DNA of 64,000 bases, taken from contig JAEKKX010000006.1 of NCBI GenBank assembly GCA_019510125.1, positions 496,001 to 560,000 on the forward strand, written 5' to 3'. A program made the position numbers and the translations under genes. This stretch comes from Lysobacterales bacterium. Its GTDB lineage: Bacteria > Pseudomonadota > Gammaproteobacteria > Xanthomonadales > Xanthomonadaceae. The notes under the pieces were generated by a model. The model was not told where the DNA came from. It saw only the letters and a list, made by a program, of their open reading frames with translations, and ran no database searches. Positions 26,865 to 44,362 of the stretch are shown piece by piece (the first letter of the stretch is position 1; every line of letters begins with the position of its first letter).

Positions 26865-28526
<1,662 letters not shown>

Positions 28527-35332: not shown

Positions 35333-35439
35333 GCAAGCATCATCGCCGTCAGGACGGCGTCGATCCCGCGGTTCCGCGACCGTGCGGCGCACGGCCGCGT
35401 GCGAGCCGTCCCTGGCCCACCACGGAGGTTTCGCCATGA
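35329..35439 (+). CDS. 36-codon ORF from duplication of the nusB 5' end
   Basis: ATG 35329 (overlapping the ribH stop as ATGA) opens [15 protein letters not shown], nearly the same as the nusB N-terminus [16 protein letters not shown]. The reading frame then diverges and stops at 35439, overlapping the true nusB ATG (again ATGA). It appears to be a remnant of an old nusB start after tandem duplication of about 45 bases; it may still couple translation of nusB to ribH. Confidence 0.6.
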
Positions 35440-35906
35440 GCAAGCCGCATCATCGCCGTCAGGACGGCGTCGACCCGGTGCTGCGCACCCGCGCCCGCCG
35501 CCGCGCGCTGCAGGCCGTCTACGCCTGGCAGATCTCCGGCGCCAGCGCCCGCGACATCGTCACCCAGTTCGCCCACGAGCAGGCGCGCGAGATCGCCGAT
35601 CTCGCGTACTTCGAGGACCTCGTCCACGGCGTCGAAACCCACCTCGAAAGCCTCGACGCCGCGCTCGCGCCGCACCTCGACCGCGGCATCGACGAGGTCG
35701 ATCCGATCGAACGCGCCGCGCTGCGCATCGCCGCCTACGAATTCGCCCGCCGCCAGGACGTGCCGTACCGCGTCGTCATCAACGAGGCGCTGGAGTCGGT
35801 CAAGCGCTTCGGCTCCGAGCACGGCCACACCTACGTCAACGGCGTGCTGGATCATCTCGCCGCCGAGCTGCGCGCGGTGGAGATGCGGTCGACGAAAGGC
35901 AAGTAA
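35436..35906 (+). CDS. nusB: Transcription antitermination factor NusB
   Basis: NusB binds boxA RNA with S10 and supports rRNA antitermination. The 156-aa all-helical product contains RARRRALQAVYAWQISG, LDRGIDEVDPIERAALRIAAYEFA, VPYRVVINEALESVKRFGSEHGHTYVNGVLDHLA. ATG 35436 follows CACGGAGG. nusB after ribH is the common order; thiL comes later, after the RiPP locus. Confidence 0.97.
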   Translation: MSKPHHRRQDGVDPVLRTRARRRALQAVYAWQISGASARDIVTQFAHEQAREIADLAYFEDLVHGVETHLESLDAALAPHLDRGIDEVDPIERAALRIAAYEFARRQDVPYRVVINEALESVKRFGSEHGHTYVNGVLDHLAAELRAVEMRSTKGK

Positions 35907-35998: not shown

Positions 35999-36069
35999 CG
36001 GTAGAGCGGCCTTCAGGCCGCTGCCTGGCGGGTGACGACAGGAGCAGCGGCCTGAAGGCCGCTCTACCG
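35999..36069. repeat. Inverted pair of the GGTAGAGCGGCCTTCAGGCC element
   Basis: CGGTAGAGCGGCCTTCAGGCC at 35999 and its reverse complement ending at 36069 enclose about 25 bases. It is the same family as 25593-25690. It sits between convergent nusB and the ATP-grasp gene and can form a strong hairpin for both strands. The rest of the 249-base gap shows nothing else. Confidence 0.8.
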
Positions 36070-36155
36070 GAGGGTTCGGGGATTTCGGGCAGAGCAGGGT
36101 GGCTGCGGCGCGCCCTAGCCGCCGCCTGGACGGGCCGCCATCGGGCGGCCGGACG

Positions 36156-37301
36156 TCACTCCTCGCTGACCCCCGGGATGCGCCCGTCCGCGCCGCGGAT
36201 GCCCGGCGCGACGCTGTCCCACCACGCCTGCTGCTCGGGATCTTCGAGGAACTGGGCGTAGGACAGGTCGGCGACGCTGTCCAGCGCGTAGTCGGGGCGG
36301 GCCTCGGCGAGCATCGCGGCCATCGCGCGCAGCAGCGGCAGTCCGGGCACGTCGTATTCGACGAACAGGAACTGCCCCGCCTGGTTGATCTCGATGAAAT
36401 GCAGGCCGCCGTCGGCGTCGCCGACCAGATCGACGCAGCCGAACGCCAGCCCCAGCGCGTCCATCAGCCGGCGCAGGCCGGCGGCCCAGTCGTCGGGCAG
36501 CGCGAACGGCCGGCTGCGGGTGCGATCGCCGATCGACGCCGCGCGCCAATCGACCACGCCGTCGCCGTCGTCGGGCGCATCCAGCCGCACCGCGAACTGG
36601 CGATGGCCGATGATCGTCACCCGCACGTCGAACGTCTTGTCGACGCAGGCCTGATAGATGCCCGGGCACAGCCGCAGGCTGGCGTCGTCGCGCAGCGCCT
36701 CGGCATCGACGGTGCGGGCGTAGGTGCTGAACATGCGGCCGGCGCCGTCGCGCCAACTGTGGGTCGCGAACGGCTTGTAGACGATGCGCCCGTGGACGTC
36801 GCGGAAGCGGCGGATGGCGTCGGGATCCGACGACAGCAGGGTCGCCGGGAAGCGCAGCCCGCAGCGCTGCGCGACCTGCAACTGGCGCAGCTTGTTCTCG
36901 GCGTCGCGCGCGCGCTCGGGCAGGTTCGCCCAGAACACGTCGCCCGCGGCCGCGGCGGTGGCGTGCGCGTTCTCGACGAAGCGCTTCCACTCGTCCTGCA
37001 CGAACGCGCGGTCGGCGTCCTCCACGTGCGCGAAGTCGTGCGGCAGCCGCGGTCGGCGGAACCACACGCTCGAGGTCGAAGCCGGGTCGATGCCGCCCGC
37101 GAAGCGCAGCCCGTGCGCGTCGTCGGCGTGCAGCGACAGCGGCGTCATCGCCGGGTCGGCCAGGGTCCGCGCCCAGACCGGACGCAGGCCGCTGCGGCGC
37201 AGCACCCAGCAGACCGCGGCGGCATGCACGTCGTGGGCGAATCCCGAGAGGATCAGCGGCTGCTTCGCGCCGGCGGCGCGGTCGGAACGGGATGTCGGCA
37301 T
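36156..37301 (-). CDS. MvdC/MvdD-like ATP-grasp ligase (graspetide maturase)
   Basis: The 381-aa product has the ATP-grasp fold as in microviridin-type peptide ligases. Features are WVLRRSGLRPVWARTL near the start, SVWFRRPRLP, ENKLRQLQVAQRCGLRFPATLLSSDP, the nucleotide lysine in GRIVYKPF, QACVDKTFDVRVTIIGHRQFAVRL, and the metal/ATP site LAFGCVDLVGD...LHFIEINQAGQFLFVE. Such enzymes form ester or amide links between side chains of a precursor peptide. ATG 37301 has GGAG five bases upstream; the longer frame crosses the hairpin and the precursor gene. The 57-aa precursor-like gene lies just upstream on the same strand, which fits the function. No transporter or protease is adjacent. Confidence 0.88.
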   Translation of the reverse strand: MPTSRSDRAAGAKQPLILSGFAHDVHAAAVCWVLRRSGLRPVWARTLADPAMTPLSLHADDAHGLRFAGGIDPASTSSVWFRRPRLPHDFAHVEDADRAFVQDEWKRFVENAHATAAAAGDVFWANLPERARDAENKLRQLQVAQRCGLRFPATLLSSDPDAIRRFRDVHGRIVYKPFATHSWRDGAGRMFSTYARTVDAEALRDDASLRLCPGIYQACVDKTFDVRVTIIGHRQFAVRLDAPDDGDGVVDWRAASIGDRTRSRPFALPDDWAAGLRRLMDALGLAFGCVDLVGDADGGLHFIEINQAGQFLFVEYDVPGLPLLRAMAAMLAEARPDYALDSVADLSYAQFLEDPEQQAWWDSVAPGIRGADGRIPGVSEE

Positions 37302-37346
37302 GCGCACTCCATCGCGGCGGGCAGGCGGCATTGAACGGAACACGAA

Positions 37347-37377
37347 AACGCCGCGCCCCTCGCGGCGGCGCGGCGTT
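37347..37377 (-). terminator. Attenuator-like hairpin between RiPP precursor and ligase
   Basis: On the minus strand AACGCCGCGCC and GGCGCGGCGTT form a perfect 11-bp stem with a 9-base loop, followed by TTCGTG so that the RNA reads GUUUUCG after the stem. Placed between precursor and enzyme, a leaky terminator would give more precursor mRNA than ligase mRNA, a common RiPP arrangement. Confidence 0.7.
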
Positions 37378-37416
37378 GCGGCGACGGCGCGCAGCGCGCG
37401 CCGCTCCGCGGACGGA

Positions 37417-37590
37417 TCAGACGGCGGAGCCCGGATCGGCCGGATCGTCGCCGTTCGGGCCGGTGGCGTGGGTGGTGATCGGAATGCGTCCGCCGGCGAT
37501 CTTCTCGATCTCCTGCGGCGACAGCTCGCGAGCGACGTTGCGGCCCAGCGGACGGGCGCGATCCTGGGACTGATCCTCGAACTTCGACAT
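37417..37590 (-). CDS. Graspetide-like RiPP precursor peptide
   Basis: The 57-residue peptide starts MSKFEDQSQDRARP. It has a leader resembling double-glycine leaders, ELSPQEIEKIAGG (residues 22-34), and a 23-residue core in which TTHAT (39-43) is mirrored by DDPAD (48-52) across GPNG. Thr and Asp are the residues that ATP-grasp maturases join, so up to three ester links (TT..T to DD..D) are possible. AAGGAG lies eight bases before the ATG. The gene sits 115 bases upstream of the ATP-grasp ligase on the same strand with a hairpin between. Codon use and GC match the neighbours. The role as precursor is inferred from context and composition; I recall a Lysobacter graspetide with a THAT-containing core (thatisin), not checked here. 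Confidence 0.82.
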   Translation of the reverse strand: MSKFEDQSQDRARPLGRNVARELSPQEIEKIAGGRIPITTHATGPNGDDPADPGSAV

Positions 37591-37679
37591 TGCGGTACTC
37601 CTTCGATCTTCCTGAGAAGGGCGGCGGCAGCGGGGCCGCGGCCGGTGGCGGTGCGCATCTTGCCTGTCTCGGCACCGGC

Positions 37680-37701: not shown

Positions 37702-37713
37702 ACGCTGCGAGTC

Positions 37714-37742
37714 TAGTCAATCGCTCGCCGGCGCGGTGTTAA
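37714..37742 (-). promoter_or_regulatory. Possible promoter of the RiPP locus
   Basis: On the minus strand TTAACA and TGACTA are 17 bases apart, upstream of the inverted repeat. Both hexamers are imperfect. The rest of the roughly 350-base gap to thiL shows no other gene. Confidence 0.35.
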
Positions 37743-37938
37743 CTTCCCGTGATCCGTTGCCGGCGGCGTCCGCCGCGGTCGGCTGCCGTTCCGGAACATG
37801 AGCGGCGTCCGCCGCCGGCGACCGCGATCGCACGCGCGCACCACGCGGTCGCAGCGCGAACGACGCCGCGGCTGTGTCACCATGCGCGCTTTCCCGACGC
37901 TCCTCCGGGCCGCTCTCCTGCCGCGCCACGCACATCGC

Positions 37939-38904
37939 ATGTCCGCATCGCCGTCCGAATTCGATCTCATCGCCCGCCTGCGCCGACGTGTCGCCGCGCG
38001 CGCGGATGTCGTGCTCGGCATCGGCGACGATGCGGCGATCCTGCGCCTGCCGCCCGGCCGCGACCTGGTGGTGGCGATGGACACGCTCAACGCCGGCGTG
38101 CATTTCCCCGAGGACACCGCGCCGGCCGACCTGGGCTGGAAGGCGCTGGCGGTGAACCTCTCCGATCTCGCGGCGATGGCCGCGACGCCGGCGTGGTGCA
38201 CGCTGTCGCTGTCGCTGCCCGCGGCGGATGCGGCGTGGCTCGACGGCTTCCTCGACGGCTTCCTCGACCTCGCCATGCGGCACGAGGTCGCGCTGGTCGG
38301 CGGCGACACCACGCGCGGGCCGCTGTCGGTGTGCGTGACCGCGCACGGCCTCGTCGCCCCGCGCGGCGCGCTGTCTCGCGCCGCCGCGCGCGCCGGCGAC
38401 GACGTCTGGATCACCGGCACACTGGGCGACGCCGCCGGCGCGCTGCGGCAATGGCGCACCGGCGAGCCGATCGACCCCGCGCTGCGCATGCGCCTCGACC
38501 GGCCGACGCCGCGCGTCGCCGCCGGCCGCGCGCTGGCCGGCATCGCCCATGCCTGCATCGACGTCTCCGACGGCCTGCTCGCCGATCTCGCGCACGTATG
38601 CCGCGCCAGCCGCGTCGGCGCGCGCGTGGACGTGGACGCGCTGCCCGCATCGGTCGCGCTGCGCGCCGCGTTCGAGGGCGACGCGCGGCGCGCCCTACAG
38701 GCCGCCGGCGGCGACGACTACGAGCTGTGCTTCACCGCGCCGAAGACCGCGCGCCTCGCGATCGAGGCCGCGATGCTCGACTGCGACGTGCCGGCGACGC
38801 GGGTCGGCGCGATCACCGACGACGATGGCAGGATCGCCGTCGTCACCTCCGACGGCGCCGCCTGGACCCCGCCGCACGGCGGCTACGTGCATTTCGCCGC
38901 CTGA
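37939..38904 (+). CDS. thiL: Thiamine-monophosphate kinase
   Basis: ThiL phosphorylates thiamine monophosphate to the diphosphate cofactor. The 321-aa product has the AIRS/PurM fold with EFDLIARLRR at the start, GIGDDAAILRLP, VVAMDTLNAGVHFP, LGWKALAVNLSDLAAMAATP, VGGDTTRGPLSVCVTAHG and IDVSDGLLADLAHV. The chosen ATG gives the family N-terminus; the frame extends upstream without similarity. It is divergent from the RiPP locus, which separates it from nusB. Confidence 0.96.
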   Translation: MSASPSEFDLIARLRRRVAARADVVLGIGDDAAILRLPPGRDLVVAMDTLNAGVHFPEDTAPADLGWKALAVNLSDLAAMAATPAWCTLSLSLPAADAAWLDGFLDGFLDLAMRHEVALVGGDTTRGPLSVCVTAHGLVAPRGALSRAAARAGDDVWITGTLGDAAGALRQWRTGEPIDPALRMRLDRPTPRVAAGRALAGIAHACIDVSDGLLADLAHVCRASRVGARVDVDALPASVALRAAFEGDARRALQAAGGDDYELCFTAPKTARLAIEAAMLDCDVPATRVGAITDDDGRIAVVTSDGAAWTPPHGGYVHFAA

Positions 38905-38922
38905 TCGCCCCGGTTTTTTTTT

Positions 38923-39131
38923 GTAGGAGCGACGTCAGTCGCGACCCAATGCCGCCCAATGCTGCACAGCGTCGCGACTGACGTCGCTCCTACAACGGCG
39001 GGATCACCGCTTTCGCTGCGCGCGAACCCGACCGGCTATGCGCGCCTGCGCTTTCGCAGGGACGACATTCGTAGGAGCGACGTCAGTCGCGACGCCGTGC
39101 CGCACAGGGTCGCGACTGACGTCGCTCCTAC
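38923..39131. repeat. Four REP-like elements as two inverted pairs
   Basis: GTAGGAGCGACGTCAGTCGC occurs at 38923 and 39071, each followed by an inverted copy (38971-38993 and 39108-39131). It is the same element as at 1807-2029. The two pairs form long stem-loops between convergent thiL and the uracil-DNA-glycosylase-family gene, which is the arrangement of BIME elements. Confidence 0.9.
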
Positions 39132-42559: not shown

Positions 42560-44362
42560 ATGAACGCACAGCCGGGACCGGCGACACTGTCGGACGACGA
42601 ACTCAGGGCCACGCTCTACTTCGCGGTCGGCGTCGCATCGGAAGGCAGCCTGCGCGGGCGCAACGTGGCCTACGACCTGGCGTTCGCCGGCTACATCCAT
42701 CGCGAGGGCGACACCGCGAGGCGCGAGCCGCGCGAAGCGGGCGTCTTCCGCGAGGGCCAGCTCGAACCGATCTACAACAGCGGCTATTCCATCGGCACGC
42801 TGCAGACCGACTTCGGCCAGCAGCGCGACGACGCCAACCGCAACGCCGACCAGTTGCTCAACGCCTACCAGACATGGGCCCGTGCGCCGGGGCAGCCGGC
42901 CCACCTGGCGCTGACGGCGGCCGAATACGGCCAGGCCAGCGATGCGCTGCGCCGCCAGGGCAACGAAATCCGCGGCGATCGCCAGACCGTCGCCGACAAC
43001 GGCTACGACCTGCCGGCCGGCATCAAGGACCGGCTCAACACGTTCCTGCGTTCGGACGCGGGCATCACCTTCGTCCACGACCAGGACGTGAGGCAGGTCG
43101 GTCATCTGCTGCGGGAAGACGGCGCGGTGCGGCGACTGGAGGACACCGCGCTCTATCGCAACGCGACCGCGGACGATCAGCTCCGGATGGCCACCGTCGT
43201 CGCCAAACTCGACAACCAGGACGGCGAACGGAACTGGCCGCGGGTGTTGCGGCGGGTGGAGAACGGCGCCATCGACTCGCTGGAAGACCTCAAGGCCGCG
43301 GTCCCGCAGCACCTGCAGGGCGACCGCGACAACGCGCTGCGCGGCGCGGAGCTGGTGATCGCCCTGCGCGGTGCGGCCGCGGACAACCCGCTGCGCGACG
43401 CGTGGCGGGACGTGATGGCCGACCCGCTGGTCAACCCGACCCGGCTGGACCAGGACCCGGCCCGTCCGCACCTGGACGCCGAGTATTCGACCGTCAAGAA
43501 CCTGTTCCTCGCGCCGGTGCAGGGCCGGGCCTTCGTCGAGGCGCTGGACGCCGGCGGCGCGCGCGCGCAGGACGTCCGCTTCCAGGGCGCGCCGGCCGGC
43601 CACACCGCCGGCCTGTACGTGTCCGGCCACGATTTCGTGCAGTGGAACCGCGACGGTCACGGGCACGCGAACATCGGCGGGCGCTGGCAGGCGATCGAAC
43701 GCGACCAGGTCACCCGGGTCGATCGCGGCAACGGCGTGGTCGATCTGGACCTGACCCGCGACGGCGTGGCGACGCCGCTGCTGCACGTCGATCCGCGCGC
43801 GCCCGGCCTGCGGCCCGCGCCGCCGCTGGAGCCGCATCCGGCGGCGCCGCGCGCACCGGGTCCGGGGCGCCGCGCGGAGGCGTCCGACCCGGACGCGCCG
43901 GCGCCGGGGGCGGACCGGCGCGAGGCGTCGCCGCGACCTGCCGCCCTGATGCTCGACGACCCGGCGCACGAGCACCACGGCATGTTCGCCGCCGCCCTGC
44001 GCGCGGTGAACGAGCGCGACGCCCGGATGGGCCGGCCACCGGACGAGATGAGCCGGCAACTGGCCGGCGGGCTGGTCGAGAAGGCGCGCGAACGCGGGCT
44101 GGACACCATCGGCGCGGCCCGGTTCACGCCGGACGGCGCGAGGGTCGGCATGACCGACACCGCGGATCTGTCTGCGCCGTGGGCGAAGACCGCGGTCGCG
44201 GACGTGGGCGCGCTGGCGGGCCAGAGTCTGGCGCAGAGCAGCGAGCACGTCGCGCGGATCGATCAGCAGCAGGCCATCGCGCAGGCCCGGAACGCCCCCG
44301 CGCAGGCGCAGGCGATGCCGGGGCCGGACGATCCGGCGCCCAGGGGGCCGCGACTGGCGTGA
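42560..44362 (+). CDS. XVIPCD protein, candidate T4SS antibacterial effector
   Basis: The 600-aa product lacks a signal peptide. Its N-terminal third (about 15-250) contains FAVGVASEGSLRGRNVAYDLAF and NSGYSIGTLQTDFGQQ, which look like a lysozyme-fold hydrolase (Glu28 a candidate catalytic acid), but no family could be named. The middle (about 250-410) is unassigned and is followed by a Pro/Ala linker. The C-terminal 464-570 is a typical XVIPCD: LDDPAHEHHGMFAAALRAVNERDARMGRPPDE, LAGGLVEKARERGLDTIGA, LAQSSEHVARIDQQQA, then a Gln-rich tail. XVIPCDs target proteins to the Xanthomonadales T4SS. The adjacent lipoprotein would be the immunity partner. Confidence 0.85.
   Translation: MNAQPGPATLSDDELRATLYFAVGVASEGSLRGRNVAYDLAFAGYIHREGDTARREPREAGVFREGQLEPIYNSGYSIGTLQTDFGQQRDDANRNADQLLNAYQTWARAPGQPAHLALTAAEYGQASDALRRQGNEIRGDRQTVADNGYDLPAGIKDRLNTFLRSDAGITFVHDQDVRQVGHLLREDGAVRRLEDTALYRNATADDQLRMATVVAKLDNQDGERNWPRVLRRVENGAIDSLEDLKAAVPQHLQGDRDNALRGAELVIALRGAAADNPLRDAWRDVMADPLVNPTRLDQDPARPHLDAEYSTVKNLFLAPVQGRAFVEALDAGGARAQDVRFQGAPAGHTAGLYVSGHDFVQWNRDGHGHANIGGRWQAIERDQVTRVDRGNGVVDLDLTRDGVATPLLHVDPRAPGLRPAPPLEPHPAAPRAPGPGRRAEASDPDAPAPGADRREASPRPAALMLDDPAHEHHGMFAAALRAVNERDARMGRPPDEMSRQLAGGLVEKARERGLDTIGAARFTPDGARVGMTDTADLSAPWAKTAVADVGALAGQSLAQSSEHVARIDQQQAIAQARNAPAQAQAMPGPDDPAPRGPRLA

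Follow-up and report, generated by a model that had tools for sequence, protein, structure and literature searches.

A probable thatisin-type graspetide gene pair, predicted to form two macrolactones, at a locus without its own exporter genes

Introduction

The described graspetides closest to the locus reported here are thatisin and iso-thatisin, whose source we take to be Lysobacter antibioticus; thatisin is said to contain two interlocking macrolactones. Microviridins have the leader motif PFFARFL, and plesiocin contains Thr-to-acid esters. According to PMC13097080, thatisin and iso-thatisin are group 16 graspetides, in which NHLM-type transporters co-occur highly and cis/trans Pro isomers are found, and plesiocin has repeated cores with ring-within-ring links. 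Gra-8 of Lysobacter capsici belongs to group 19, with up to three dehydrations and four conserved acceptors (excerpt of PMC9576775), and the Cluster 859 precursors also come from Lysobacter (excerpt of PMC8939145).

Here, we analyzed a 64,000-nucleotide stretch of DNA (the window) from a Lysobacterales bacterium, which carries a small gene followed by an ATP-grasp gene. We read this pair, with a probability of roughly 0.78, as a thatisin-type (group 16) graspetide locus whose peptide would contain two macrolactones, formed from Thr40 and Thr43, with residue 39 not cross-linked.

Precursor and ligase genes

The pair comprises the following features.

37417-37590, minus strand: putative graspetide precursor gene, 57 aa (translation; homologue beside the ligase in relatives)
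37598-37603, minus strand: ribosome-binding site AAGGAG, 7 nt before the precursor ATG (sequence)
36156-37301, minus strand: 381-aa ATP-grasp ligase of the graspetide type, predicted to link Thr and Asp side chains (NCBIfam, solved structures, ortholog tree, dN/dS)

The initial annotation had pointed to a 57-aa minus-strand ORF with an AAGGAG ribosome site, and both were confirmed: the ORF at 37417-37590 starts with ATG and translates to MSKFEDQSQDRARPLGRNVARELSPQEIEKIAGGRIPITTHATGPNGDDPADPGSAV, and AAGGAG, read from 37603 to 37598, is kept in 7/7 aligned same-genus upstream sequences. The leader spans residues 1 to 34, ending in AGG, and the core spans residues 35 to 57, RIPITTHATGPNGDDPADPGSAV, with Thr39, Thr40, and Thr43 and Asp48, Asp49, and Asp52 located as claimed. 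No Pfam model matched the precursor, and its three NCBIfam matches, all of bacteriocin type, were sub-threshold.

The next gene downstream had been described as an ATP-grasp gene with MvdC/MvdD-type motifs, which also holds. It starts with ATG, with GGAG 5 nt upstream, contains KPF and EINQAGQF, and matches the MvdC/MvdD-type models TIGR04187 (188.6 bits, 1.5e-55), TIGR04185 (138.5 bits), and TIGR04184 (135.4 bits), each score lying below the curated cut-off of its named subfamily (350 for TIGR04187). Six solved ATP-grasp ligase sequences were matched as well, the best being 5ig8 (3.7e-28), with 5ig9 (4.3e-25) and 7mgv CdnC (1e-22) among the others. The matches to TIGR04187 and to the solved ligases, against a weak RimK match of 27 bits, place the protein in the graspetide synthetase family; Pfam gave one sub-threshold match. 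The frame is open further upstream (515 codons); the 381-aa start was selected on account of its ribosome site. A predicted structure, built from seven close orthologs, was poor (mean pLDDT of 50) and was not used.

Structures 5ig8 and 5ig9 are the microviridin ligases MdnB and MdnC, to which the window ligase is homologous, and the window leader, with PL.R..AREL, resembles the microviridin motif. In contrast to microviridins, which combine two ligases, one for the lactone and one for the lactam, with a core Lys, the window locus has one ligase gene and a different core; because this core has no Lys, no lactam is expected. The window locus shares a single ligase with plesiocin, whose ligase PsnB, which we assume to be 7drm, is a distant homologue (E of 4.8e-11), but the window precursor has one core, with Asp as the only acceptors. 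Gra-8 is a graspetide of the same bacterial family but of a different group. The Cluster 859 precursors, likened to the window precursor by the description in the accessible text rather than by sequence, share leader features with it and also come from Lysobacter.

Two ligase paralogs are present elsewhere in the genome. Small proteins also lie beside a distant ligase paralog (31-33% identity) at L107 7770-8072 and 8270-8608 and at L105 9122-9403 and 9545-9871. They have GA-type leaders (VLGR.LAVEE...GA), and those of L107 carry tandem GTTADSG/GTTSDSG repeats; by sequence they are possible multi-core graspetide precursors.

Conservation of the gene pair

Among 395 genomes of the family, presumed to be the Lysobacteraceae on the strength of six named records, 61 have a ligase match at E <= 1e-20 and 26, from four genera, have a close ortholog (at least 51% identity over at least 309 residues). 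A motif scan of the ligase loci found a small HATG...G[DE][DE]P gene, with conserved donor and acceptor residues, adjoining the ortholog in 25 of these 26 genomes; in the remaining one, G216, the contig ends inside the ligase. The co-occurrence in relatives that had been proposed as a check of the pair was thus found, and the pairing is more than chance. A precursor-profile search of the 395 genomes gave 28 strong matches (E <= 1.2e-27) in 25 genomes, exactly those whose ligase ortholog has readable upstream sequence, three of them with two precursors. Because the profile was built from 22 precursor sequences of those same 25 genomes, the independent evidence for linkage is the motif scan.

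In a class-wide search with the profile, 3 of 369 genomes matched: the window's own and two weak ones (model positions 8-36 and 7-41 of 57), so that no other genome matched over the core. Among the genomes listed for that sample, only four, the window's own (G000) included, belong to its family, and both searches scored at most 16 or 17 first-look candidates in each genome, a limit that may have hidden weak relatives. The family search matched 41 of 395 genomes in all, 16 of them weakly only and mostly on leader positions, and these 16 were left out of the core counts. Cores were read for three of them, G374 (L129 ~7604), G302 (L090 ~1554), and G391 (L035 ~1271), whose small genes encode an AREL[TS]..E/D..xGG-like leader with quite different cores; from their sequences, it looks like the leader is shared and the core replaced.

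Core residues and ring number

In all 28 precursors, T40, H41, A42, T43, G44, G47, D48, D49, P50, D52, and P53 are invariant, P45 is present in 27 and N46 in 26, giving the family pattern THATG[PA][NG]GDDPxDP. The collecting scan required HATG and G[DE][DE]P, i.e., H41-G44 and G47-P50, so these columns are partly fixed by choice; T40 and D52, which the scan did not ask for, are the cleanest evidence of conservation. The motif match was present in every one of the 25 readable ligase loci. Residue 39, on the other hand, is Thr in 19 precursors; 7 others have His there, one has Asn, and one has Ser. All three Asp residues stay in each of the nine non-Thr precursors, and in eight of these the His or Asn means that no ester is possible at that position. 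For the label "only Thr39 forms", the ligase tree requires 7 changes, at least 5 of them forced by well-supported branches, about the same as for shuffled labels (mean of 7.6). Tandem precursor pairs occur in G144, G065, and G159 (loci L017, L018, and L020), and each of these two-precursor genomes (3/3) pairs one Thr39 form with one His39 or Asn39 form.

The initial annotation had taken the mirrored TT..T/DD..D arrangement to mean a hairpin that turns at GPNG and is held by up to three Thr-Asp esters. With all three, the hairpin would be symmetrical, pairing Thr39 with Asp52, Thr40 with Asp49, and Thr43 with Asp48, or in a similar way. The three Thr and three Asp are indeed present with mirrored spacing, and most precursors have Thr at residue 39. 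However, 9/28 precursors carry His, Asn, or Ser at residue 39 and retain every Asp, the other five positions being invariant; this residue switches repeatedly on the tree and differs within each tandem pair. Residue 39 therefore behaves as a free or specificity position rather than as a cross-link site, and the three-ester hairpin appears improbable. The two interlocking macrolactones reported for thatisin also speak against a nested hairpin and agree with two esters. The two invariant donor positions favor a prediction of two esters, one each from Thr40 and Thr43, and two rings would fit group 16 as far as sequence can indicate. The window's precursor could nevertheless be cross-linked at a position that is variable among its relatives. 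The graspetide interpretation itself is supported in its precursor/ligase pair, double-glycine leader, likely Thr-to-Asp linkage, and link to thatisin, but not in its symmetrical three-ester pattern. Of the two options offered, a new member of the thatisin kind is favored over a new topology, the core being kept across four genera.

Leader motif and exporter genes

Every one of the 28 leaders ends in GG (-1/-2) and carries Ile or Val at both -4 and -7 and Leu at -12, which are the positions recognized by C39 peptidase-transporters (excerpt of PMC10885120). An orthologous C39 transporter (at least 63% identity to that of G137) lies directly upstream of the precursor in 22 of the 25 genomes, the gene in G373 having an internal TGA. 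The G137 protein contains the Pfam C39, ABC membrane, and ABC ATPase domains, and its best NCBIfam model is NHLM_micro_ABC1, at 467.5 bits, below the cut-off of 853.3. In a long-stretch comparison of the window and 19 others among the 25 genomes (G116, G156, G189, G251, and G316 were left out), an HlyD-type adaptor and the C39 transporter were found upstream in 18/20 loci, with a partial adaptor match in G292 and G065. Neither is present at the window locus or at that of G204, and a search for the transporter within the window yielded, besides weak short matches, only ABC-ATPase-like ones at 27033-28469 (26-28% identity). In G189, the 386 bases upstream on the contig held no convincing transporter end, in a check that recovered 3/4 controls; as this assembly is fragmented and 86% complete, it is weaker evidence of absence than the window and G204. 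This absence of exporter genes, which the initial annotation did not mention, is unexpected. On the ligase tree, G000, G204, G189, and G216 form one clade (support of 99/98), so a single loss suffices, the G216 contig ending before the point in question.

Elsewhere in the G000 and G204 genomes, the best matches to the G137 transporter reach only 49-50% identity. In G000 (97.7% complete), the Peptidase_C39 model finds one copy, at C44:372315-372692, about 160 kb from the window locus. This domain sits in a transporter (C44:370659-372692, 49% identity) whose best model is again NHLM_micro_ABC1, within a second, complete graspetide-like locus, C44:370301-375162 (L102 8301-13162), that comprises a precursor, the transporter, a ligase, and an HlyD adaptor. 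The transporter lies next to the ligase (C44:372831-373772), the adaptor, and the small precursor gene. The product of this small gene has a leader ending in ELEAVTGG, with V at -4 and L at -7 and -12, and a different core containing TVTVTPNGDGGDDGCDDDWAW. G204 has the corresponding locus and three further C39 domains. G228 has a similar second transporter (52%) yet keeps its own at the precursor locus, so a second copy alone does not explain the loss.

Genomic context

The surrounding genes and noncoding elements are listed below.

35436-35906, plus strand: nusB, flanking gene outside the cassette (PF01029, 7.8e-32; synteny)
37349-37367, minus strand: terminator-like hairpin with a TTTTCGTGTT tail in the precursor-ligase gap (1 found versus 0.3 expected from shuffles)
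37710-37746, minus strand: GAAGTTAACAC..TAGACT, a promoter-like element preceding the precursor gene (same-genus conservation)
37939-38904, plus strand: AIR-synthase-related gene, read as thiL, the other flank, outside the cassette (PF00586/PF02769; synteny)

Six same-genus genomes offer enough context for comparison (G000, G204, G137, G013, G061, and G228); in all of them the cassette sits between nusB and the thiL-like gene with the ligase toward nusB. Same-genus relatives have the HlyD adaptor and C39 transporter between the thiL-like gene and the precursor. In the cassette-less same-genus genomes G172, G089, and G115, nusB and the thiL-like gene are ~60 to 500 bases apart, and the gap holds other sequence in two of them. 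Loci in other genera have different neighbors. Together, the differing neighbors and cassette-less genomes indicate that the cassette moved, or was gained and lost.

Upstream of the precursor, TTAACAC and TAGACT are spaced 19 bases apart (20 in the window) in 7/7 same-genus loci, and this element, present in one copy in the window, is kept although the sequence beyond it differs among these loci. A promoter scan gave no sigma-70 match, and a looser form of the pattern was unmatched upstream of 21/21 precursors from other genera. The hairpin at 37349-37367 may be an attenuator giving more precursor than ligase; folding of the precursor-ligase gap was not clearly more stable than that of shuffles (z of -1.6). 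In the ligase-nusB gap, a long palindrome (GTAGAGCGGCCTTCAGGCCGC...) was observed at 36000-36070, with a 23-base piece occurring 6 times in the genome (0 for the backward control); it could be a REP-like element or a shared terminator. A large inverted repeat (GTAGGAGCGACGTCAGTCGCGAC and its complement) lies at 38920-39000, just after the thiL-like gene and beside an A run on the minus strand.

Discussion

By analogy, the locus appears to belong with thatisin in group 16, as a new family member of a kind already known. It resembles thatisin in the THAT of the core and in the Lysobacter family, and also in the probably NHLM-type transporter beside the locus in the window's relatives and in prolines that could isomerize (Pro50 and Pro53 in 28/28 precursors, Pro45 in 27/28). 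It differs in having no adjacent transporter or adaptor, the transporter being a mark of group 16. The accessible portions of the literature searched mention thatisin in passing, with neither its sequence nor its structure, so the link to group 16 relies on the THAT name, the host family, the prolines, and the transporter type. Within the precursor family, the window core begins with RIPIT, where relatives of g15, a genus with large genomes that may be Lysobacter proper, have KGDT or KGDS.

In the proposed mechanism, the leader, with its conserved RPLxRxxAREL followed by a segment ending in GG, would deliver the precursor of 57 aa to the ATP-grasp ligase, which would phosphorylate core Asp side chains and join them to Thr40 and Thr43. 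The resulting two macrolactones would use two of Asp48, Asp49, and Asp52, with an expected mass change of -36 Da, and residue 39 would be a variable position without a cross-link. A cut after Gly34 would then remove the leader, and the core would be exported. As dedicated genes for cutting and export are absent from the window locus, these steps, if they happen in this clade, would have to be done by machinery encoded elsewhere. As no more than a default guess at function, the peptide might inhibit proteases, as microviridins and plesiocin do.

The missing exporter can be explained in several ways. Processing of the window precursor in trans is plausible, and we tentatively suggest, at slightly less than even odds, that the clade dropped its own HlyD adaptor and C39 transporter and that the second locus now cuts and exports the peptide through the GG motif. 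Somewhat doubtful is the idea that another protease cuts and releases the peptide while GG persists as a ligase-binding part of the leader. The AREL segment may overlap both possible recognition sites, and some other RiPPs are known to rely on proteases that their clusters do not encode (excerpt of PMC10885120), but the full C39 pattern is kept in three transporter-less genomes, and a C39 transporter with the same best model is still present in the genome.

We give little credence to a decaying remnant, in which precursor and ligase went out of use in the window's clade once the export genes were gone. This would suit the loss of adaptor and transporter at the window and G204 loci and the low identity of the best transporters elsewhere. 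However, both genes are intact in G000, G204, and G189, and leader, core, and upstream element are all kept. Ligase dN/dS within the clade is 0.167 (G000-G204), 0.124 (G000-G189), and 0.164 (G204-G189), values near that of the transporter-bearing pair G137-G061 (0.189) and above those of the closest pairs, G013-G061 (0.093) and G138-G316 (0.059). Pairs with G216 gave 0.113 (G000) and 0.136 (G189), and G000 gave 0.303 with G137 and 0.334 with G228. The ligase of the exporter-less clade is still under purifying selection, though perhaps somewhat less strongly than that of the closest pairs.

With the set of 28 sequences, what was a guess at ring number becomes a direct prediction of two rings, from T40 and T43, with residue 39 free, and the paired Thr39 and His/Asn39 precursors point to residue 39 as a possible determinant of specificity. 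The transporter-less clade offers a natural test of whether RiPP clusters share exporters, with one candidate detected in the genome. If export in trans through the second locus holds, two graspetides with different cores would share one exit, with the GG leader motif as the interface.

Elsewhere in the window, 42560-44362 (plus strand) encodes a protein of 600 aa whose C terminus carries an X-Tfes XVIPCD domain (PF20410, 1.7e-12). This protein resembles the effectors that a Xanthomonadales-type type IV secretion system delivers to competing bacteria.
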